Source: a virus
IMG/VR virus record: IMGVR_UViG_3300045972_000299
Location: 1 to 33,709 of that record
DNA: 33,709 nt
Strand: one strand, 5' to 3'
The position numbers and the translations under genes were made by a program. The notes beneath the pieces were generated by a model. It had not been told where the DNA came from. It made no database searches and saw only the letters and a list, made by a program, of their open reading frames with translations. Shown piece after piece: positions 20,249 to 33,709 of the stretch. How positions within the stretch are numbered: position 1 is the stretch's first letter; the number at the start of each line of letters is the position of its first letter.

Positions 20249-20566
20249 TTATGTGAAATAAAATGTTTTGCCACTTCCAGTTCCAAATCGCTGTTGTTTT
20301 ATAGTTGCTAAAAATGGAAAATCTTGTTTTTGAACCTTATCCAAAGCCTCTTTAATAGGAGCTGCATTGGTAAAAAATTTCCGTTCTATATTTTCATATC
20401 GTACTTTCACAATATATCTTCCTGGACCATGTTTAGTCTTTACATTAGCTTCAAAATCCAACACTACTATTTCGCAGTTAGTTACCTCTTCTATTGATAT
20501 AATAGGCACTGCAAATATGTTTTTATCTTCATTTGTTTTTATTCCGAAATCAGAGAACTTTTTCAT
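20249..20566 (-). CDS. Small hypothetical protein downstream of the DGR reverse transcriptase
   Basis: A 105-residue protein, mainly strands ('IFAVPIISIEEVTNCEIVVLDF', 'GRYIVKVRYENIERKFFT') with one helix ('PIKEALDKVQKQDFPFLATI') and a C-terminus 'RFGTGSGKTFYFT'. The strands could form an OB-like or ssDNA-binding-like fold, but no family is certain. The 'GTGSGKT' is not a credible Walker A because it is ten residues from the end with no preceding strand-loop context. It overlaps the end of the reverse transcriptase gene by 17 bases, so it is expressed with the DGR. It does not resemble the helical Avd accessory protein of DGRs. Confidence 0.6.
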   Translation of the reverse strand: MKKFSDFGIKTNEDKNIFAVPIISIEEVTNCEIVVLDFEANVKTKHGPGRYIVKVRYENIERKFFTNAAPIKEALDKVQKQDFPFLATIKQQRFGTGSGKTFYFT

Positions 20567-21536
20567 TTATTACTTTTTTTAATAGGTTTTTTGAATTGCA
20601 ATGCTTAGCCCAACCGAGCCAAGGAGCTATTTTAATTTTATATTCTTTGTCTGTTATTTGCTTCATTTTATTGAGCTTTGCAGCTTTCCGACAAAGGCGT
20701 TTCTTTATCGTTTTACGCATTAAAACATGTGAGTGGTAAAAAACATAACCAACGAAGTCAATACCGCGAGAATCGACCGGGAACACTTGATAGTTACCCT
20801 TTAGTTTTAGCTTTAGATTAGTCACAAAATAAGTGTCTATATCTTTTAGTAATTCATGCAAATACTGTTTATTTCCGCTTAAAATTACGATGTCATCTGC
20901 ATATCTGTAATAGTATTTTATTTGCTTTTCTTCCTTCAACCAGTGGTCAAAGTAAGATAAATATAGATTTGCAAAGAACTGAGACAAGTAGTTTCCTATT
21001 GGGACACCGGGAGCACTATCAATAATTTCATCTAATAAGTTAAGTAGCTTATTATCTTTCAATTTTCGCCGTATAATAGCTTTTAATACTTCATGATCAA
21101 TCGTTGGATAGAACTTCTTTATGTCTAGTTTAAGACAATATGTTGTATTTTCAATATCTTTCAAGTCCTGTTTTAAATCTTTCAACATAGCATGTATTCC
21201 ACGGCCTTTTATGCATGAATAAGTGTGGTGAATAAATACGGATGTCCATATAGGTTCAAGTATATTCATGATCGCATGATGAACGACACGGTCTCTGAAT
21301 GGTAATCTGAATATTTCACGTTCTTTCGGTTCATATATTTTAAACACGCTATATTCAGAGGTTTTATATGCACCTGTTATCAGTTCATTGTACAACTGAT
21401 CAATGTTGTTTTCAACATTTCTTTCAAAAATCTTGACACCATATTGCCCGGACTTTCCTTTCCGGGCTTTTTGGTATGCAAGTATCAAATTGTCTTTTGT
21501 GACTACTTTGTCAAATAAATTATTTATTCTTTTCAT
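20550..21536 (-). CDS. DGR reverse transcriptase
   Basis: A 328-residue reverse transcriptase from ATG 21536 (MKRINNLFDKVVTKDNL, the usual beginning of DGR RTs); an ATG at 21581 would add 15 residues. The catalytic domain shows 'RLPFRDRVVHHAI', 'LDIKKFYPTID' (first Asp at 138), 'YRYADDIVIL' (YADD 212-215) and 'GIDFVGYVFYHSH'. The motif IGNYLSQ (180-186) in place of the QGxxxSP of group II intron RTs is a hallmark of DGR enzymes. There is no maturase or endonuclease domain. It makes adenine-mutagenised cDNA from the template repeat lying 100 bases upstream, for transfer into two target genes. The order targets, template, RT on one strand is canonical. Confidence 0.95.
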   Translation of the reverse strand: MKRINNLFDKVVTKDNLILAYQKARKGKSGQYGVKIFERNVENNIDQLYNELITGAYKTSEYSVFKIYEPKEREIFRLPFRDRVVHHAIMNILEPIWTSVFIHHTYSCIKGRGIHAMLKDLKQDLKDIENTTYCLKLDIKKFYPTIDHEVLKAIIRRKLKDNKLLNLLDEIIDSAPGVPIGNYLSQFFANLYLSYFDHWLKEEKQIKYYYRYADDIVILSGNKQYLHELLKDIDTYFVTNLKLKLKGNYQVFPVDSRGIDFVGYVFYHSHVLMRKTIKKRLCRKAAKLNKMKQITDKEYKIKIAPWLGWAKHCNSKNLLKKVINEKVL

Positions 21537-21636
21537 AAGCCTGGCTTTCAAAAATGGAGCTTTCTCATTTGATACTAACACCGTTGAAAGATTAGTCGTT
21601 TTTTGCTAAGAAGCAAGGTTTTTGCCTTTTCATTTA

Positions 21637-21716
21637 CCAGTTGGGAACTGGAACCTGCATTCGAATTCGTATTAGCGTTATTCGTATTGTTCAAACCGAA
21701 CGCTGAAGCAGAACCA
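21637..21716 (-). repeat. DGR template repeat (TR)
   Basis: An 80-bp sequence between the second target gene and the RT, non-coding here. Read on the minus strand it resembles the variable ends of both targets, but at the variable sites it has asparagine codons (AAC/AAT, seven within 33 bases). Over 80 aligned positions it differs from VR2 at 15, and over 75 from VR1 at 14. Every difference lies at a minus-strand adenine. This asymmetry is diagnostic for the template of a DGR. Confidence 0.95.
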
Positions 21717-21740
21717 GCGAAGACAAACAACCTAAATTTA

Positions 21741-22112
21741 TTATCCTAATTGAACTCCCTTCCAAACATCGACAAATTGTTTTGCTGAATACTCAGCAGT
21801 TTCTTCGTCAATATTTTGCAGGCGGGAACCGGAACCCGCAGCCGAACGCGTAATAGCGTTACACGTATCGCTCAAACCGAACGCCGAAGCAGACATTACA
21901 AACCAGGGACGCCATTTTAATTCATTTCGATTGTCCCAATTCGGCTTTTTACCACCGTTTAAAGCTTCAGTAACTACAACTGCATTATATTGGCTTTCAA
22001 AATACTCTCTTAAATCTTCAGGAACATTTGAAAAGTCAACTTGTGGTCTACCTGTAGCCTTAAATGCATCTTCTACAGTTTTAATTTTCTTTAAATTTGG
22101 ATTTTTTTTCAT
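21741..22112 (-). CDS. DGR target protein 1 (variable protein)
   Basis: A 123-residue protein whose residues 74-98 are the variable repeat. It is related to target 2: shared 'FSNVPEDLREYFESQYNAVV' (27-46), 'ALN.GK' (50-55) and 'SASAFGL' (74-80) before the variable window, and 'GSGSRL' (93-98) after it. Template asparagines at 81, 82, 84, 85, 87, 89 and 91 have become Ser, Asp, Cys, Asn, Ile, Arg and Ala. The short conserved tail 'AEYSAKQF' follows. Proteins of this kind, with a W/Y-rich 'KWRPWF' core and ending GSRL, occur in many Bacteroidota phages. No signal peptide, membrane segment or tail-fibre domain is visible. It lies 24 bases from the template repeat and 23 bases downstream of target 2. 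Confidence 0.88.
   Translation of the reverse strand: MKKNPNLKKIKTVEDAFKATGRPQVDFSNVPEDLREYFESQYNAVVVTEALNGGKKPNWDNRNELKWRPWFVMSASAFGLSDTCNAITRSAAGSGSRLQNIDEETAEYSAKQFVDVWKGVQLG
21819..21893 (-). repeat. DGR variable repeat VR1
   Basis: 75 bp aligned without gaps to the template at 21638-21712. There are 14 mismatches, all at template adenines (minus strand), of 21 such adenines; the other 54 positions are identical. The 22-base end (21819-21840) is identical to VR2 but differs from the template, which marks the initiation site (IMH) of mutagenic homing. Confidence 0.95.
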
Positions 22113-22135
22113 GTTGGTAATTTTTTAATTGATTA

Positions 22136-22615
22136 TTAAAGTGATAACATATCTCTGAATTCATTTTTGAATTTTTCACCGGCAATCTTAGCTATTTTAC
22201 TATCTAAAAAAGCCAGGCGGGAACCGGAACCCGCATCCGAAATCGCAGCAGCGCCATGCGTAAAGTTCAAACCGAACGCCGAAGCAGAACCATTATTTCT
22301 GAAGTAAGGATAATGACGATAATTAGACTCATTGTATATATCAAATCTTTTGCCTTCATTCAAAGCTTCAGCAATCACTACACATTTGTAGGTTGATTGA
22401 AAAAATGGGCGTAAATCTTCAGGAACACAACTAAAGTCAGGTACTGAAGGACGGCCTGTTTCTGATAGTGCATCCTCAAGTGAATTAATACGATCTTCCA
22501 CTGATTCATTGAAAAACTCTTTACCGAAAGTATCTTCCAGTATTTCTTTAATTTCAGGAGATGCCGATTTGTATCGGCTACGAGCCTTTGTCTCGTCAAA
22601 TTGAAGTTGTTTCAT
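22136..22615 (-). CDS. DGR target protein 2 (variable protein)
   Basis: A 159-residue protein, the longer of the two targets. It has an extra N-terminal helical region (1-45, 'ARSRYKSASPEIKEILEDTF') that target 1 lacks, then the shared module 'VPEDLRPFFQSTYKCVVIAE' (64-83), 'YRHYPYFRNNGSASAFGL' and the variable window at about 117-128. The window is followed by 'GSGSRLAFLDSKIAKIAGEKF'. At the template asparagine sites it carries Asn, Phe, His, Gly, Ala, Ile and Asp, so it is a different sampling from target 1. It is first in the cassette, separated by 90 bases from the ATPase gene upstream. The variable residues would form a binding surface; the ligand is unknown. Confidence 0.88.
   Translation of the reverse strand: MKQLQFDETKARSRYKSASPEIKEILEDTFGKEFFNESVEDRINSLEDALSETGRPSVPDFSCVPEDLRPFFQSTYKCVVIAEALNEGKRFDIYNESNYRHYPYFRNNGSASAFGLNFTHGAAAISDAGSGSRLAFLDSKIAKIAGEKFKNEFRDMLSL
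22213..22292 (-). repeat. DGR variable repeat VR2
   Basis: 80 bp aligned without gaps to the template at 21637-21716. There are 15 mismatches, all at minus-strand adenines of the template (21 available), and none at the other 59 positions. Substitutions include A to G, T and C on the coding strand, as expected for error-prone copying of adenine. Confidence 0.95.
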
Positions 22616-22705: not shown

Positions 22706-23332
22706 TTAAAATAATGTTGGATGTTGATTTGCTGATTTATTAGGCAGAAATAATTGGTGTTCTACCGGTGCATCCAAATAGCGACTTATTGAGTACACAC
22801 GACCATTTTTAAAGTACATCTTGATATCAGATGCATGCAATAAGTCTTTACCACTATCAGGACTACCTTTCGAGCTTCCAAAATCGACCAGACAAATACA
22901 TAATAACCGATTTGAGAAGCGTTTGCGAAGTTCGCGAAGTTGATTAAACGTAAATCCCATATACTTCACCGAGTCGATAATAACAAGCCTGTAATAGTTC
23001 TTTTCAATGGCCGTACACATTTCGTCAAAAGTCATTGCATCAGCCACAAAAAGCTTTTGAGCATCAATGTTGAAATTGTTTATTCGGTTCTGAATAGTTT
23101 GATTTGCACCCTCTTCGTGCGAGTTATAGAGCGATTTTCCAAATGTTTTTGCAAAGTAGTTTGAAAACTGCATAAGGAAAACCGATTTCCCTGAGCCGCT
23201 TTCACCATAGCACATCATAGTGAATTTGCGTTCAGGTTTACCCATGAGTTTAGCGTAGAACTCATCAAATTCAAGCGTATGAAATTTCTTTTCTTTCATA
23301 CTTTTTACGCTGTAAATTTTCTTTTTTGCCAT
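22706..23332 (-). CDS. P-loop ATPase (RecA/RadA-like core)
   Basis: This 208-residue ATPase has Walker A 'YGESGSGKS' (42-50), preceded by the strand 'KFTMMC', and Walker B-like 'YRLVIIDSVKYMG' near 113-125. 'NSHEEGANQTIQNRINNF' resembles the loop after the first strand of RecA/DnaB-like folds. A further strand 'NRLLCICLVDFGSSKGSPDS' (near 142-161) has the polar end of a sensor motif. It lacks helicase N- or C-domains, so it is smaller than DnaB or RecA. It may serve DNA replication or repair after transposition, or recombination with the DGR cassette next door. It is expressed with the early operon. Confidence 0.65.
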   Translation of the reverse strand: MAKKKIYSVKSMKEKKFHTLEFDEFYAKLMGKPERKFTMMCYGESGSGKSVFLMQFSNYFAKTFGKSLYNSHEEGANQTIQNRINNFNIDAQKLFVADAMTFDEMCTAIEKNYYRLVIIDSVKYMGFTFNQLRELRKRFSNRLLCICLVDFGSSKGSPDSGKDLLHASDIKMYFKNGRVYSISRYLDAPVEHQLFLPNKSANQHPTLF

Positions 23333-23843: not shown

Positions 23844-24815
23844 TTACAGTATTTCAAACTCTTCAGCAGTAATTTTACCTAAATCAATACCCATGCGTTC
23901 AGCGCGTTTAATGGCTTTATCAGCCTCTTCATAGTTCCACCATCGAGAACCTGCTAATGCCAATACTTTATTGTTAGATATGCCTTTTTGTGTGCAAAAT
24001 CCAGCAATATCATCTGTACTTATGTTGTCAATTCGGAATACCGAAATACGACGGGCAAAAGTGCTGTATATGTTGCTGTTTTCGCGGGTTGGATACCATT
24101 TATAGCTGTAACCTGTTGAAGTTTCATAGGCTTTATATTCAAGTCCGGCCATTTTTCCAATTCGAGTTATAACCTCGCTAATTCCTACTATGGAAATAGC
24201 CAACAAACCTTCGGTAGCAGTTCGGAAGTTTTTCAAGTCCTTGAAAAATGAGTTTTTAGCTACCTCACTTTCGTCAATAATAAGCATTGGATTGCTATCT
24301 GCTTTTTCTTCAACTAGGAGAATGATTTTATCCATCAGGTAAGAGGTTGAAAAACGAAGGCGTTTGCGGTCTAACCGGATACCCATTTCTGTAGCTACTT
24401 GCATTAAAAAGCGGTTCCAGGTCATTTCTTTTCGGTCAATCTTAATGTACCAACAGCATTCGTTTTCTTCAGCAAACTTTTTGAATACGATTGATTTTCC
24501 AATGCCAGTATTGCCGGCAATAAGGCGCATATCGCTCATTTTCTTGCAAGCAGTGGCAATGTTCCACATCTTATTGAATTGTCGTGTAGAAACAAGCGTT
24601 TCATCGCCAAGGTAATCCTTCAGACTGTCATAGATCACATTCAATAATTTGTCAGAAAATGACTTCTTGTCTCTCAAAAGTTCGGAAATAGTACCTTCCG
24701 AACGGCCTGTTATACGTGCAATTTCAGCAGGTTTCAATGCTTTTTTGTCCATCAACACTACCAACTTATCACGCAAAGCGGATTGTTTAGGACTGATTTC
24801 AATTTTGTTACTCAT
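23844..24815 (-). CDS. MuB-like transposition ATPase with HTH domain
   Basis: This 323-residue protein has an N-terminal Cro-type helix-turn-helix (residues 27-50, 'LKPAEIARITGRSEGTISEL') and an AAA+ ATPase. The ATPase has Walker A 'GNTGIGKS' (101-108), Walker B 'NPMLIIDESE' (Asp181-Glu182) and a sensor region 'LLAISIVGISEVI'. MuB binds target DNA, picks the integration site and activates MuA; the HTH-AAA layout matches MuB/AAA_22-type target selectors. It lies just after the MuA-like gene (23 bases), as in Mu. 'TAEGLLAISIVGISEVITRI' corresponds to the ATPase sensor-1 region. Confidence 0.87.
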   Translation of the reverse strand: MSNKIEISPKQSALRDKLVVLMDKKALKPAEIARITGRSEGTISELLRDKKSFSDKLLNVIYDSLKDYLGDETLVSTRQFNKMWNIATACKKMSDMRLIAGNTGIGKSIVFKKFAEENECCWYIKIDRKEMTWNRFLMQVATEMGIRLDRKRLRFSTSYLMDKIILLVEEKADSNPMLIIDESEVAKNSFFKDLKNFRTATEGLLAISIVGISEVITRIGKMAGLEYKAYETSTGYSYKWYPTRENSNIYSTFARRISVFRIDNISTDDIAGFCTQKGISNNKVLALAGSRWWNYEEADKAIKRAERMGIDLGKITAEEFEIL

Positions 24816-24838: not shown

Positions 24839-27010
24839 TTAGTTTAATTCGATTCTATGAATTTCACCTGTATCAGGGTCAACAATTTCTTTGTATCGTG
24901 GAGCCTCTTTAGCTTCAATTTCATCAAGCAGCAAAGCACTTTTATCATATCTACCTTCAATCCGTTTTTCAAAGTCCACATATGTACGGCGTTTTCCTGT
25001 CAACATTTCATTACCGAGCTCTTCTATGCGTTCATAATCGGGGTGCATGCTTACCTGTTGTTTAATATCTGCATTTATCGCTTTAGCCGTTTCCTGTACG
25101 CGGTACTGAAGAGCCATAATGTTACTCAGTACTTTCTTTTCTTCTTTGGTTTCGGCTATGTATGCTGTATTTACTTTCAGTCCCCAAATTCCAAGATATT
25201 TGCCGTCGTGACTAAACACCGGTGCGGGGTCTCCACCCTTCAGAATGTATATTTTAAGCTTATTGGCCGTACTAGCATCCATTGGAGTGTAAGTGAATAT
25301 ACGGTCAGCAAAAGCGCGTTGATCAGGCGTTTCAATGCTAGGGAAATAGCAATAATCTTTACCATCGTGACCGACTTCTAAACCGGTGATGGTTAGTTTC
25401 CTTTCATGAAGCGTTCCACACATCATGCATAATTGGGAATAACTCAATTTAGGTACGTAGCTTTCCTTTTCATCCCACATCTCGAAAGGTGTTTTGTTGC
25501 AAGGCTTTTTCTCCAGCGTTTCAATTACGCGTTCATTCCAGGACTTCATACCTTCGGTTTTTGCCCACTCCATAGCTATGGATGCACTCCTGGCAGCATG
25601 TTTGCCTTTTGTTTCACGGCTATCGGATGGTTTTGAATTGATAGAACCCGTTGCAGTACGGTTCATACCGCTAAATCCTTTCATGAACTTGGTAATATCA
25701 TTGTCGAACATGTTGAAAAGTGACTCAATAGTTTTTGCACGGGCGTTACCGGTACGAGAAGCATACAATCTAATCTCATTTTGTTCGCACCAACGTTCCA
25801 GTTCTTTGTAACTCGGACCGTGGTCACAATGTATAATAGCCGGTTTGTATCCGGTTTCAATAATTCCCATCATTATGGCTTCTTTCACCGCGTAGAACGG
25901 TTCTTTTACACCTATCAATGTTGATACTCCAACCATGCGAAGCGTGGACACATCAGCCACTTTAATAGCGTAAATATGTTGGCGTACTTTGCCTTTAAAC
26001 TCAACGTTTTCGTTCTGAGCAGTACCATCAATAACCCATACATGGTTTTTCTTGGTTGGTAGGTCGCGCGTAGCCGTTGGAACTGTATTTAGGTAATAAT
26101 CCATACCGTCTGTTTTTTCCAATCGGTTAGGATTCTTTAGCGGGGCAAGAAGTTGATATAACCTGGCTTCGGTTGGCGGATTATACTTTCCGTTTTCATC
26201 CATCCACCAGCCGTTTTCCTGACCATATTGCTTCCATTTCTTGTATAAGTTGGCAATGCTCATGTTCACACCGTTTATATGCCAAAATGCAGCTATTCTG
26301 AATTGTTCATCAGTCACTTTAGATGCATTTTCATTACTCATACGCTTTGGCTGGATAATATCTTGTGGGCGTTTGCCTTTATCCATTGCAGTAAGCACAT
26401 CATCAAACCATTTATTGAAACGTGTTTCGCTCCGGGGTATCTTTACCTCAAATTCTATCTTACTGATAGATGTTAGCAAGTTCATCCGGAAACTTCGCAC
26501 CAACACTTCGCAACGCTTCATATCCACTTCGCTAGTTTGTATTTTGCTTACAAAATCAAACATCCATTGTACCAAAGCGCATTGTTTTGCATAACCTTTT
26601 ACCGAGTTAGAATGTAATCCAAGGTCTAGATAAGAAGCTGTATAAAGCGTGTAGTGGGTACTCATATAGCTTTCAATGGTCGAGCGTATAAAAGGCTCAT
26701 TGATCTGAAGTGACTCAGCGGTGAACTCAACCGCCATTGGGGCGCAATCTTCACCGGCATTGGTAGCCGTGCGAAGCAACTGCGAATACTCATTTTTCAG
26801 GTTTGCAAACTTTTCAATAACCTTTGCTTTGGTAACACTGGTTAAGCTATCCACAAATACATAGCGTCCATTCTCCATCTTCACATCCTCCAAACGCCCT
26901 TTGCTCTTTTGGTTTCTATACGATACTTCAGTATAGATACCTTTCAAAAGCAAATGCTGTTTAGAAATCATCAATCTACCTTGTGGGTCAATAAAAAGTT
27001 CTTGTTGCAT
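24839..27010 (-). CDS. MuA-like DDE transposase
   Basis: A 723-residue transposase of the Mu/Tn552 rve type. Catalytic residues are Asp328 in 'HVWVIDGTAQNENVEF', Asp396 in 'PAIIHCDHGPSYKE' and Glu429 in 'GNARAKTIESLFNMFDNDIT', a DDE triad with 67- and 32-residue spacings. Upstream lie helical DNA-binding domains (about 60-310) and downstream a Mu-transposase C-type region ('KTPFEMWDEKESYVPKLSY', 'TITGLEVGHDGKDYCYF', with the beta-barrel). It joins phage ends to target DNA in integration and replicative transposition. Length and order (Cro-like, DUF3164, A, B) fit Mu-like phages of Bacteroidota. Confidence 0.93.
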   Translation of the reverse strand: MQQELFIDPQGRLMISKQHLLLKGIYTEVSYRNQKSKGRLEDVKMENGRYVFVDSLTSVTKAKVIEKFANLKNEYSQLLRTATNAGEDCAPMAVEFTAESLQINEPFIRSTIESYMSTHYTLYTASYLDLGLHSNSVKGYAKQCALVQWMFDFVSKIQTSEVDMKRCEVLVRSFRMNLLTSISKIEFEVKIPRSETRFNKWFDDVLTAMDKGKRPQDIIQPKRMSNENASKVTDEQFRIAAFWHINGVNMSIANLYKKWKQYGQENGWWMDENGKYNPPTEARLYQLLAPLKNPNRLEKTDGMDYYLNTVPTATRDLPTKKNHVWVIDGTAQNENVEFKGKVRQHIYAIKVADVSTLRMVGVSTLIGVKEPFYAVKEAIMMGIIETGYKPAIIHCDHGPSYKELERWCEQNEIRLYASRTGNARAKTIESLFNMFDNDITKFMKGFSGMNRTATGSINSKPSDSRETKGKHAARSASIAMEWAKTEGMKSWNERVIETLEKKPCNKTPFEMWDEKESYVPKLSYSQLCMMCGTLHERKLTITGLEVGHDGKDYCYFPSIETPDQRAFADRIFTYTPMDASTANKLKIYILKGGDPAPVFSHDGKYLGIWGLKVNTAYIAETKEEKKVLSNIMALQYRVQETAKAINADIKQQVSMHPDYERIEELGNEMLTGKRRTYVDFEKRIEGRYDKSALLLDEIEAKEAPRYKEIVDPDTGEIHRIELN

Positions 27011-28791: not shown

Positions 28792-29520
28792 ATGGATGCA
28801 ATAACGGATATTTCAAACAGAATTAGCGACTTAGTAGTGCATTTTGCTGAAGGCAAGAACACTAAGTTTGCTGAGCTTGTGGGAACAAGTGAAGCTAATA
28901 TCCGTAATTATAGAGGTGGAAAAATGCCTAAGTTCGATTTTATATACAAAGTTTGCGAGAAACTCGAAATTAGTTACGACTGGTTTATCTTGGGAAAAGG
29001 CTCAATGATGGATAAGCAATCATCGCATGAGGTAGAAAGCAGAAATATATTAGTGCTAAATGATAAATCATCATCTTATAAGACACTTGAGAAACAAACA
29101 ATACCAATATATAACCTAAAAGCAGCTGCCGGGTTAGTATCATTATTTCAGTCTCCAAGTTCATTTATACCGGTTGATTATATATCTCTTCCAAACCTTG
29201 GAAAGGTAGATGGTGGACTATATGCTGTAGGTGATAGCATGTACCCGCTAATTAAATCCGGTGATATAGTTGTATATCGACAAATACATGATATGATCAA
29301 CAATATATTTTGGGGTGAGATGTATTTATTATCGTACGATCTGGAAGGTGAAGAGTATATTGTTATCAAATATATTCATGCATCTGATATACCAGGTTGC
29401 ATTAAGTTGGTAAGTCAAAATCAACACCATTCACCAAAAGAAATTCAACTATCTAATGTCAGAGCATTGGCACAAATAAAAGCAAGTGTTCGTTTCAATG
29501 CTATCAGACCAAATAGCTAA
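28792..29520 (+). CDS. Prophage repressor, LexA/S24-type
   Basis: This 242-residue repressor has an N-terminal helix-turn-helix (about 20-55, 'NTKFAELVGTSEANIRNYRG') and a C-terminal S24 peptidase domain. The catalytic Ser149 lies in 'VGDSMYPLIKSGD' and Lys193 in 'EYIVIKYIH'. The Ala-Gly cleavage site is probably in 'KAAAGLV' (113-114). Self-cleavage stimulated by RecA filaments would induce the phage after DNA damage. That differs from Mu, whose repressor is destroyed by ClpXP. It is transcribed away from the early operon over putative operators and is followed by a PH-like gene. Confidence 0.9.
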   Translation: MDAITDISNRISDLVVHFAEGKNTKFAELVGTSEANIRNYRGGKMPKFDFIYKVCEKLEISYDWFILGKGSMMDKQSSHEVESRNILVLNDKSSSYKTLEKQTIPIYNLKAAAGLVSLFQSPSSFIPVDYISLPNLGKVDGGLYAVGDSMYPLIKSGDIVVYRQIHDMINNIFWGEMYLLSYDLEGEEYIVIKYIHASDIPGCIKLVSQNQHHSPKEIQLSNVRALAQIKASVRFNAIRPNS

Positions 29521-30344: not shown

Positions 30345-32117
30345 ATGAAAAAAGCGATAATACATATTTCAGATCTCCATATAACTGAACACAGAAATGA
30401 TGACGGTGAGCTTATTACCACTTCATGGTTCACGACTCATGAGCTGCCTTTTCATAATAGCATAGTTGATTTAGTCAAGTCAGAAAAAGAAAGATTAAAT
30501 ATTGAAACGTTTTACTTAATTGTTTCAGGTGATTTATCAAATACTTCAACAGTTGAAGAATATAAAAAAACAAAAAAGTTTCTTGAAAAATTCATTAAAG
30601 ATTTAAAGATAGAAAAGGAGAATGTTATAATTGTTCCTGGAAATCATGATATCAATTGGTATGAAAATAAAAAGGCAGTAGAAGAGCATAAACTTACGAG
30701 TACATCTTTGAAAAAAGCGAGGGAATTTAACTCTGAAAAATTCGCTCATTATAAAAACTTTTTTGATGATTTCTTTAGTGACAAATCTTTAAAATTCCTA
30801 ACAGATAAAATCATTGTTCAAACAGTTCCATTAAATGAATTAAAAATAGTTTTAATTGGGGTGAATTCGGTTTTAATGTCATCACACATTGAAGTTCAAT
30901 TTGGAGACATTGAAATTGAAAAGTTAGATGAAGAGTTACAAGAAATACATAGTAAATATAGTGAATACGAAAAATTATGCATATTTCATCACAATCCAAA
31001 AATTAGTACAATTGATGGTAAAGCAACTCTTAAAAATTGGTCTGAAAAAGTTAGTATTTTCAATCGTCACAACATTAAAACTTTCTTGTTTGGTCATGAA
31101 CATACCTATGGTTCATATAAAGATGATAAAGATTTCTGTAATTACATAGCTACAGGTTCATTAGGAATAAATAAAAAAGATATTCATAATTATATCAATA
31201 TAATTGAAATCATTGAGACTGATTCTAATGTAAAACTAAAAACAAACTTTTTTAAACTTGAGAAAGAAGGTAAGCCAGAACATCTTGAATTTGGATTTTG
31301 GAATTTGCTAAATGATTCCGCAAATTCGAAAGAGTTATTAATAGTTGAAAAGCCAAAAATTACTTCAAATTCTAATATTTCATTGTTTCCAAATGTTATT
31401 GAATCAACGACATTTGAGGAAACTACCACAAAATCTACAGTTGATACAATTGAAAGTGTAGTTGAATTTGATTATTCTGATTTTCTTGTTGACTATATAA
31501 AAAAAAATAAAGCATTTAAATCTGGTCATTTCCATTGGAATGAAACTGCGAAATCGCATAATTGGTTAGATATTTCAACACTTCTAAAATCTAGAGAAAT
31601 GGTTTTGATGTGCCAGAAAGCAATTTTTGAAATAATAAAGAAAGACATTTTAAAAACAGATTTAATAATTGGGGTTGGGATGGAAGGAAGTTTTATAGGT
31701 TCATCAATATCTTTGTTGATGAATAGTCCCTTTACTTTTTTACCGTATGAATATAGATATAAAGATCATGAAGAACATGAAAAAAAATTGAATTTTCTTC
31801 CAAATGCTAATGTCACAATCATATTTGATGTTGTCCATTCAGGTTCAACAATCAAAAGTCTTTTAGAAAGTCATAAAGATTTTTTTAAGACATCAGAAAG
31901 CATAAATTTAATATCACTATTTTACACAGGGAAAAAAGAGTATTCTGTTGATTTATTTAAAGAAACAATAGACAAAAGACTAGCATTCTATAATGTTTGC
32001 TCCAAAATTAAAGTTGAATCATGTCCATATGGTACAGATTACAAAGAAAAATGTACTGTATATGCAAAGAAGTTAGATACTATTTATGAATTCTATAATA
32101 ATGCAAGAAAAAATTAA
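30345..32117 (+). CDS. Metallophosphoesterase-phosphoribosyltransferase fusion protein
   Basis: A 590-residue two-domain protein outside the phage core. Residues 1-300 form a calcineurin-like phosphoesterase with the full metal set: Asp10-x-His12 (SDLH), Asp63 (SGDLSN), Asn100-His101 (PGNHD), His215/216 (FHHNP) and GHEH 250-253. After a linker rich in Thr and Ser (330-375), residues 376-590 resemble orotate phosphoribosyltransferase: 'FKSGHFHWNETAKSHNWLDI' at the start and the PRPP-binding loop 'TIIFDVVHSGSTIKS' (491-505). The usual second acidic residue of this loop is Val496. The combination suggests a nucleotide- or PRPP-linked enzyme; PRTase and phosphoesterase domains are known in bacterial conflict systems. 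The DNA is markedly AT-rich. Confidence 0.8.
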   Translation: MKKAIIHISDLHITEHRNDDGELITTSWFTTHELPFHNSIVDLVKSEKERLNIETFYLIVSGDLSNTSTVEEYKKTKKFLEKFIKDLKIEKENVIIVPGNHDINWYENKKAVEEHKLTSTSLKKAREFNSEKFAHYKNFFDDFFSDKSLKFLTDKIIVQTVPLNELKIVLIGVNSVLMSSHIEVQFGDIEIEKLDEELQEIHSKYSEYEKLCIFHHNPKISTIDGKATLKNWSEKVSIFNRHNIKTFLFGHEHTYGSYKDDKDFCNYIATGSLGINKKDIHNYINIIEIIETDSNVKLKTNFFKLEKEGKPEHLEFGFWNLLNDSANSKELLIVEKPKITSNSNISLFPNVIESTTFEETTTKSTVDTIESVVEFDYSDFLVDYIKKNKAFKSGHFHWNETAKSHNWLDISTLLKSREMVLMCQKAIFEIIKKDILKTDLIIGVGMEGSFIGSSISLLMNSPFTFLPYEYRYKDHEEHEKKLNFLPNANVTIIFDVVHSGSTIKSLLESHKDFFKTSESINLISLFYTGKKEYSVDLFKETIDKRLAFYNVCSKIKVESCPYGTDYKEKCTVYAKKLDTIYEFYNNARKN

Positions 32118-32152
32118 AATCCCAAAGAGAGAATTCTTTCCCTGCTCCATCT

Positions 32153-32171
32153 CGATTGTATCGTGTGGGAA
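32153..32171. repeat. Intergenic repeat CGATTGTATCGxGTGGGAA, copy 1
   Basis: CGATTGTATCGTGTGGGAA in the gap after the phosphoesterase gene. A second copy with one difference lies 764 bases on. It contains the palindrome-like CGATTGTATCG. Such short dispersed intergenic repeats are a chromosomal feature and are absent from the phage part of the window. Confidence 0.6.
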
Positions 32172-32354
32172 TTTGGCAAAATTAGTCTGAATCAGAATTT
32201 ACAGAATTAGGGAATTCTTGGCAAGCCAAGCGGCAGAGCCGAGCGTACAGAATAAGAAAAATAAGAAGAATAGTTATTGTTGGTAAGGATTAGAATCCGA
32301 GCAAGCGGGCATAGATTAAAACTAAATGAAATGATCAACTTAAAACAAAATATT

Positions 32355-32900
32355 ATGAGTTTTATAAGAAAAATTCCTTACATGTTATTTCTGACAGCAA
32401 TTTTATTGATTTTTTATAGTGCAAAATTACCACCTACAGAAAATGGAAATGAAATTGTTGTTATTGCAAACTACAAATGGATTGCGAAATTAGGCAAAAT
32501 GACTATTTCAGAAGGTCCGGCTAAACCAGTTTTGAAAAGTTTGGAAACAGGAGAAAAATTTACACCCAAATACTTTGATAAAAGTTATGCATACTTCTAT
32601 AATTTAAAGTTAGGTGACTATATACTTGATGACATTTTACTTGATGCTGGAAACATGAAATTGCACTTAAAGACAGTCAATAAAGTACGAATCTTTAGAA
32701 TTGAAAAACCTGGTGTGCTTTTTATAGGAGGTATGGATATTGTTGACTATCAAACAAAAATGAAGTTTATTATTCATGATAGTATTCAAGTAAAAAAAGA
32801 TATTGTTGACATACGAAAACATTTTTCAAATAGAAAAAATGGATTAGAAGAAAGAAGCATAATAGTACTTGACAGCCTATTAATTCAAAATAAATGGTAA
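32355..32900 (+). CDS. Hypothetical protein with N-terminal membrane anchor or signal
   Basis: Starting at ATG 32355 the protein has 181 residues and begins MSFIRKIPYMLFLTAILLIF, a membrane anchor or uncleaved signal. The frame is open to ATG 32277, but the added 26 residues are basic and unlike a leader, so the shorter form is preferred. The remainder looks strand-rich ('NEIVVIANYKWIAKLGKMTI', 'NKVRIFRIEKPGVLFIGGMD') and exported. No lipobox or family is recognised. It is flanked on both sides by the CGATTGTATCG repeats, so it is probably a stand-alone chromosomal gene. Confidence 0.6.
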   Translation: MSFIRKIPYMLFLTAILLIFYSAKLPPTENGNEIVVIANYKWIAKLGKMTISEGPAKPVLKSLETGEKFTPKYFDKSYAYFYNLKLGDYILDDILLDAGNMKLHLKTVNKVRIFRIEKPGVLFIGGMDIVDYQTKMKFIIHDSIQVKKDIVDIRKHFSNRKNGLEERSIIVLDSLLIQNKW

Positions 32901-32916
32901 GAACTTACTCCCTCGC

Positions 32917-32935
32917 GATTGTATCGGGTGGGAAA
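32917..32935. repeat. Intergenic repeat CGATTGTATCGxGTGGGAA, copy 2
   Basis: CGATTGTATCGGGTGGGAA in the 143-bp gap after the hypothetical gene; 18 of 19 bases match copy 1. Both copies lie a few tens of bases after a stop codon and in the same orientation. They could be spread by a non-autonomous mobile repeat or be part of mRNA 3' ends. Confidence 0.6.
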
Positions 32936-33043
32936 ATAAAGTGAGGTCTGATGAAAAATAAGAAAGTTGATTTAAAATGAGGAATAAATAAACTACATGG
33001 TGCAATTGTGCGGCATATGGTTATTACCACCAATTAAAAAAAA

Positions 33044-33709
33044 ATGAAGACATACATTGTAGATGCTTTTACTAAAATTCCATATGCTGGAAATCCAGCA
33101 GGAGTTTGCATTTTAGATTACGAATTACCAGATAATTTAATGGCAAAGATTGCCGGGGAAATAAATCATTCTGAGACAGCATTCTTACTTAAAATAGATA
33201 ATGTTTATAGCCTGAGATGGTTCACGCCAAAAACTGAGGTTAGTTTGTGCGGACACGCAACTCTTGCTACTGCCCACATTTTATATGAGACAGGATTTCT
33301 AAAGAGTAATGAGCAGATAAAGTTTGATACTAAAAGTGGGGTTTTGACGGCAAGGATTACTAATGATATGATTGAATTAGATTTTCCTCAGATGTTTGTG
33401 GACGAATGTGAAAGTAACGAGATTATTGAAAAGGCATTTGATATTAAACCTGTTTACGTAGGGAGAAATGATAAAAGATATTTGATTGAAATAGACAGTA
33501 TAGAAAGATTAAAAACAATAGAACCTGACTTTCAGTTGTTGCAAAAGTCAGACAGAGGAGGGTTTATAATAACTGCAAAATCAGATGTCAAATATGATTT
33601 TTATTCGAGATTTTTTGCTCCAGGTGTTGGAATAAATGAAGATCCAGTAACAGGTTCTGCTCACTGTTATCTTGCTCCATATTGGTCAAAGAAATTAAAT
33701 AAATCAAAG
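33044..33709 (+). CDS. PhzF family isomerase/epimerase, 3'-truncated by window
   Basis: 222 codons are present from ATG 33044; the frame is open to the window edge. Residues 1-60 carry the PhzF hallmark: 'VDAFTKIPYAGNPAGVCIL' and then 'NHSETAFLL', with the catalytic Glu at 44, and 'WFTPKTEVSLCGHATLATAHIL' (63-84). 'FFAPGVGINEDPVTGSAHCYLAPYW' in the second half is the second conserved motif. Proteins of this family use a diaminopimelate epimerase fold and catalyse proton shifts in small acids; the substrate is unknown. It is a normal chromosomal metabolic gene and confirms that the phage has ended before it. Confidence 0.92.
   Translation, partial: MKTYIVDAFTKIPYAGNPAGVCILDYELPDNLMAKIAGEINHSETAFLLKIDNVYSLRWFTPKTEVSLCGHATLATAHILYETGFLKSNEQIKFDTKSGVLTARITNDMIELDFPQMFVDECESNEIIEKAFDIKPVYVGRNDKRYLIEIDSIERLKTIEPDFQLLQKSDRGGFIITAKSDVKYDFYSRFFAPGVGINEDPVTGSAHCYLAPYWSKKLNKSK

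Follow-up and report, generated by a model that had tools for sequence, protein, structure and literature searches.

Bacteriophage diversity-generating retroelements (DGRs) have been understood as systems that change receptor-binding tails. The mechanism of the DGR of BPP-1, which consists of brt, the template repeat (TR), avd and mtd, is well established. The targets of phage DGRs are mostly tail proteins, with C-terminal variable repeats (VRs) located in C-type-lectin folds (PMC8144416). Isolated gut phages had nevertheless hinted at a non-structural second target. The second DGR target of Quimbyvirus was proposed to be non-structural and related to conflict (Benler 2021, PMC8008677), and four gut prophages were reported to carry second VRs close to counter-defence genes (PMC12629997). 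DGRs with two targets have also been reported for tentaclins, which are C-lec/Ig-like proteins (PMC10743442). In the literature consulted we found no description of a DGR lineage with small targets only or of an RT-linked protein of 105 aa; supplementary tables and subscription papers lay outside this scope, and an earlier mention is possible.

In this study, we report a DGR that is likely to be complete and recently active, and whose targets would be two small, probably cytoplasmic early proteins and not tail fibres.

Organization of the DGR Cassette

The cassette is found on the minus strand of the virus record IMGVR_UViG_3300045972_000299, which was analyzed over its 33,709 nt (the window). 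It is transcribed in the order target 2 (T2), target 1 (T1), TR, reverse transcriptase (RT) and a 105-aa gene, all of them on the minus strand. The initial annotation had described two paralogous targets, an 80-nt TR and an RT with IGNYLSQ and YADD motifs on that strand, all of which were confirmed to the base; it had overlooked the 105-aa gene (20249 to 20566), and the cassette is thus larger than described.

The RT gene (20550 to 21533) encodes 327 aa and its product matched the Pfam model RVT_1 (E = 9e-19) and the PHROG RT profile (1e-131), being 36% identical to brt of BPP-1. A GTG start at 21581 is unlikely because alignment with the relatives begins at residue 1 of the 327-aa ATG form. 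The 105-aa gene, an accessory candidate assigned to phrog_19665, overlaps the 3' end of the RT gene by 17 nt. The TR (21637 to 21716) has 21 adenines, 16 mutagenic and five corresponding to fixed end differences, and contains no ORF of at least 60 aa on its own strand. Its 3' end (21637 to 21656) is of the IMH* type, with adenines at 21656, 21649, 21642 and 21641 facing fixed G or C in the VRs. T1 (21741 to 22112; 123 aa) carries an internal VR followed by a conserved helical C-terminus; in TR register VR1 extends from 21818 to 21897, with a mismatch-clean core at 21819-21893. T2 (22136 to 22615; 159 aa) has an N-terminal helical extension and contains VR2 (22213 to 22292). Besides VR1 and VR2, no further copies of the TR were found in the 33.7-kb record, which ends inside the tail module and lacks the distal tail genes, where a tail VR of this phage might lie.

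The target genes are located in the early transposition region. The next gene upstream of the cassette, on the same strand, encodes a RadA/KaiC-type ATPase with weak similarity to Sak4 (22706 to 23332), and it is accompanied on the minus strand by genes for a MuB-like DNA transposition ATPase (23844 to 24815) and a MuA-like transposase with an rve core (24839 to 27010), whose rve match of 27.4 bits is below the Pfam cut-off of 32.6. A CI-like repressor gene (28792 to 29520, plus strand) is divergent from this early operon. The Mu-like character of the phage proposed initially is borne out by a Mu-type portal (Portal_Mu, 3e-70) and by MuB (phrog_296, 3e-20). Its designation as a prophage is likely and unproven, the right end being host-like and the left end cut within tail genes. 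The right end (30345 to 33709) looks like host DNA or cargo and includes a metallophosphoesterase-phosphoribosyltransferase fusion and a PhzF-like gene. The fusion showed sub-threshold similarity to the anti-phage phosphoesterase model DS9_1, and a tblastn search for it in the relative G001 gave no match. The host is presumed, from the relatives, to be of Bacteroidales type: two relative MAG contigs are labelled Tannerellaceae and Bacteroidales, and within one such order a target homologue was found in 11 of 295 genomes.

Comparison of the Template and Variable Repeats

Realignment reproduced exactly the mismatch counts given in the initial annotation. VR1 differs from the TR at 14 of 21 TR adenines and at 0 of 54 other positions, and VR2 at 15 of 21 and 0 of 59, respectively. 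The probability that every mismatch falls on an adenine by chance is 2e-10 for VR1 and 8e-12 for VR2. The adenine-only pattern therefore stands, but the 14 and 15 changes are not all products of mutagenesis, five of them being end differences fixed throughout the family.

The TR adenines at 21704, 21656, 21649, 21642 and 21641 are altered in both VRs. When 72 TR/VR pairs of the family were aligned on the SRL codons, two kinds of adenine emerged. Four of the five positions of shared change are never unchanged across the family, three having G and 21641 having C or T, while 21649 (position −3) has G in 61 of 65 pairs. The VR base is never A at positions −58, −10, +4, +5, and +8, where it is G at the first, second and third of these, C or T at +5, and almost always T at +8. 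In the mutagenic stretch from −45 to −14 (plus −6/−5 where present), all four bases occur at most sites and 16-65% of pairs are unchanged. The change at −10 (GCA to GCG) is silent, and protein selection is thus no explanation for it. An IMH/IMH* difference is present at the 3' ends of VR and TR, with −10, +4, +5, and +8 fixed. Judging from this alignment, the five end-position differences are fixed ones of IMH/IMH* type and not products of recent mutagenesis. Genuine mutagenesis consequently amounts to 9 of the 16 adenines of the mutagenic window in VR1 (P ~1.8e-7) and 10 of 16 in VR2 (P ~1e-8). A VR hairpin (GCGGG-8nt-CCCGC), perfect in 34% of the VRs and broken in the TRs, was discarded given that its stability did not exceed that of shuffled sequences and no covariation was seen.

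The Target Proteins

Both T1 and T2 match the profile of phrog_11581, a family of unknown function. Target sizes range between 123 and 159 aa, and the VR is internal and followed by about 25 conserved residues; the C-terminal VR of C-type-lectin DGR targets was found in neither T1 nor T2. Alignment of 69 target sequences revealed an N-terminal helical region, the VR, an invariant SRL and a conserved helical C-terminus. The variable segment, of about 25 residues, lies between the N-terminal helix and the C-terminal helix pair. The TR encodes seven Asn (AAY) and two Thr (ACG) codons, which gives approximately 2.7e9 possible protein variants. Outside the VR, dN/dS was 0.06-0.18 for both targets, which indicates that purifying selection acts on them.

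The AlphaFold models reached a pLDDT of 83 overall and were weak over the VR (54-60 in T1 and 58-68 in T2). Comparison of both models, with this weakness over the VR, to the PDB gave no fold match, and a BFVD fold search with T1 alone returned uncharacterized phage proteins. Profile searches of the targets against PDB and Pfam yielded nothing convincing. Comparison of the small-target and tail-target profiles confined the similarity to the VR (34 columns, 90% probability). Judged by these comparisons, T1 and T2 are not recognizable tail proteins.

Activity of the System in Relatives

When IMG/VR was scanned with the RT, 327 relatives were confirmed; the best 80 of them were retained, and most of these loci share the cassette layout. 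The restriction of TR/VR mismatches to TR adenines also holds across the family. Seven informative pairs of near-identical relatives, not all of them independent and with totals summed by hand, differed at 65 of 242 adenine-templated VR sites, 0 of 639 other VR sites, 0 of 571 TR sites and 114 of 12,092 sites in genes and flanks (~0.9%). In one pair (L029/L030), 1,897 flanking sites, 80 TR sites and 112 other VR sites were identical while six VR adenine sites differed. Near-identical relatives thus vary in their VRs only at template adenines, which argues that the system is active. The initial proposal of an intact DGR that is or was active gains support from the intact ORFs and from this VR turnover, and its expectation of VR differences at TR adenines only agrees with the counts in relatives. 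The opposite outcomes, changes at non-adenine sites or a TR changing as fast as the VRs, were sought in these pairs and were absent.

The number of targets per cassette ranges from one to three. In L006 (5453-6896) one TR serves three tandem small targets, and in L069 (2756-4394) a segmental duplication of target and TR (617-nt offset, 392 nt near-identical) has produced two TRs and three VRs. A Tannerellaceae MAG contig (L115:610-2723) carries two phrog_11581-type targets and a TR of 77 nt with 13 of 23 adenines changed. No RT match was found in that contig, where a helicase/N6-N4 methylase followed by a C5 methylase occupies the place of the RT, which may have been lost, replaced or be acting from elsewhere.

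The RT-Linked 105-aa Protein

Nearly all small-target loci have the 105-aa gene after the RT, and in most of them the tblastn overlap is the same, 13 nt. Homology to its product was found in the C-terminal domain of the annotated RTs of Hankyphage (L117:10744-12048; E = 6e-29) and BT-TP2 (E = 7e-14). Profile searches of the protein against PDB and Pfam gave nothing convincing; its sequence pattern, examined by eye, resembles an OB fold. The bAvd model PF22296, which detects BPP-1 at 2e-37 as a positive control, had no match in the cassette record, in eight relatives or in the other DGR phages tried, a search that a divergent Avd could escape. An Avd is marked in Hankyphage by PMC12135933. A search with PF05635 was uninformative, since it found no match and also missed BPP-1. 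The 138-aa gene that follows tail-type RTs was considered as a homologue and rejected, its initial resemblance lacking profile support. The 105-aa protein is probably an RT accessory that replaces Avd or acts alongside it, and it is a testable candidate for a new cofactor of DGR reverse transcription.

A Probable Lineage with Small Targets Only

Eight relatives (contigs of 34-58 kb) have a TR and two VRs each, both VRs being in small genes, and no VR was found in a tail gene of these contigs. In the RT tree, which was midpoint-rooted and in which some long branches are badly placed, the RT of the cassette belongs to a supported clade of 27 rows, 22 of them typed as small-target and none as tail. 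Tail-type RTs group elsewhere, and the labels need five changes compared with 13.6 in shuffles. The TR of this lineage, of about 80 nt, corresponds to the portion common to both targets in dual-target phages. Two relatives (G003 and G008) have only the cassette proteins in common with this phage, and a third (G011) the cassette plus a weak tape-measure match. As these phages are otherwise unrelated, the T2-T1-TR-RT-105-aa unit, which recurs among them, appears to move as a whole. By these comparisons, the DGRs of this lineage appear specialized for targets other than tail proteins.

Phages with One TR and Two Targets

A tblastn search of T1 against named phages gave no match, a divergent family member being needed as query. 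Target homologues were then found in BI-TP1, PV4-TP1, LoVEphage, Versailles, BT-TP2 and Dulem virus 41. Versailles and BI-TP1 each have one TR with two matches, one to the C-terminal VR of a tail protein and the other to a phrog_11581 gene located far away. The single TR of BT-TP2 likewise matches a distant phrog_11581-type gene, its near target being a very large ORF without annotation next to the RT. Five tail-type viral contigs of 48-68 kb contain a phrog_11581-type gene, located at least 30 kb from the RT, that is matched by the 77-83 nt at the 3' end of the TR, with adenine mismatches of 16/22, 14/22, 18/23, 12/21, and 17/26 and other mismatches of 0, 1, 0, 0, and 0, respectively. The whole 116-nt TR missed this second VR in tail-type phages when used as query, only the 3' portion matching. 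The TR region of the crAss-like cr52_1 has a 65-nt match to a small phrog_11581-type gene, with 14 of 20 adenines and none of the other positions mismatched.

These homologues adjoin RecT and a metallo-hydrolase, NinB, YqaJ or methyltransferases, and nearness to counter-defence genes was seen in some relatives only. The neighborhood in BI-TP1 is of the Quimbyvirus type described in PMC8008677, with methyltransferases and a tRNA ligase, and its phrog_11581 gene may well be the non-structural Quimbyvirus target of that work. One gene of Versailles (L089:6001-6582) is annotated as a tail protein and yet belongs to phrog_11581. Its tail match spans only the VR segment, and VR sharing seems therefore to be a cause of mis-annotation of DGR targets.

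Possible Role of the Diversified Proteins

The initial annotation, correct as to the target genes themselves, was silent on their products being non-tail proteins. Given that the targets are early-region, non-tail proteins, the phage may diversify something that works inside the infected cell; gene position and the lack of tail similarity outside the VR point to a non-virion role. According to known DGR biology, the RT would copy TR RNA with errors at adenines and the cDNA would replace the VR up to the IMH boundary, which here would be inside the coding region. The 105-aa protein would probably help the RT, taking the place of Avd. The early product would most likely bind a variable intracellular partner, for example a host defence or competitor factor, and its function is perhaps counter-defence. 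We tentatively propose, as a possibility that we hold with some reserve, that this lineage without tail targets is a portable cassette for small intracellular early binders, that is, hypervariable proteins inhibiting competing phages or host defence, and that it has an Avd substitute of its own and a retrohoming signal in the coding region.

Hypervariable proteins might instead serve superinfection immunity or prophage competition by recognizing early proteins of other phages. The early region is close to the repressor, and paralogues would hold several specificities at once, with up to three targets in a cassette; the same facts fit counter-defence equally, and we place this explanation on the unlikely side. 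It is distinctly unlikely that the small targets serve as minor components of the virion or in receptor binding, for example as tail-tip adaptors, in an ordinary tropism switch with unusual proteins and gene order. Such a role would agree with the predominance of tail proteins among phage DGR targets (PMC8144416) and with the alignment of the VR segment to tail-target VRs, but the genes are in the early region by MuB/Sak4/RecT-type genes and outside the tail module, the similarity to tail targets is limited to the 34 VR columns, phages with two targets already possess another VR in a tail gene, and the tail label of the Versailles gene seems due to the VR alone.

The repeated neighborhood with RecT, YqaJ, NinB and Sak4-like genes would suit targets that tune phage recombination or transposition as partners of the neighboring recombinase, with variation as a by-product. 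However, random diversification against a fixed partner is hard to square with the adenine-rich Asn codons kept in the TR, and we consider this quite improbable. That the cassette is a decayed, inactive remnant is hardly credible: sets of TR and targets without RT do exist (L115), but intact ORFs, purifying selection and VR turnover in near-identical relatives already contradict it for the family. If the small proteins do act intracellularly, as we favor, targeted hypermutation would be used in intracellular conflict between phage and host or between phages, and the partner could be sought with the natural VR variants, which would already form a panel of binders.

Relationship to Described DGRs

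In the present data one target family links the second-target cases, and in one clade phrog_11581 is the only target found. The cassette agrees with the DGR of BPP-1 in an RT homologous over its length (36%), a TR just 5' of the RT, adenine-only TR/VR differences and 3'-end differences as for IMH/IMH*. It differs in that the target of BPP-1 is a tail tropism determinant with a C-terminal VR, whereas here the VR is internal to small early-region proteins, and in the 105-aa gene downstream of the RT, no bAvd gene having been found. Hankyphage (Bacteroides phage p00) is a Bacteroides phage that is likewise Mu-like, and the C-terminal domain of its RT resembles the 105-aa protein; unlike the cassette, it has a 116-nt TR and a single target in a very large ORF of the tail region, and the two RTs are far apart in the tree. 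Tentaclin DGRs (PMC10743442) also use one TR for two structurally different proteins, one VR not being C-terminal, but tentaclins are C-lec/Ig-like proteins. With the Quimbyvirus type, the cassette shares its target family, phrog_11581 being the distal DGR target of BI-TP1, whose neighborhood is of that type. There, however, one DGR serves a tail gene and a distal gene, whereas the cassette has neither a tail target nor the tail-specific TR portion, the length of the TR tracking the absence of the tail target, and carries one to three small targets beside the RT in a portable unit.
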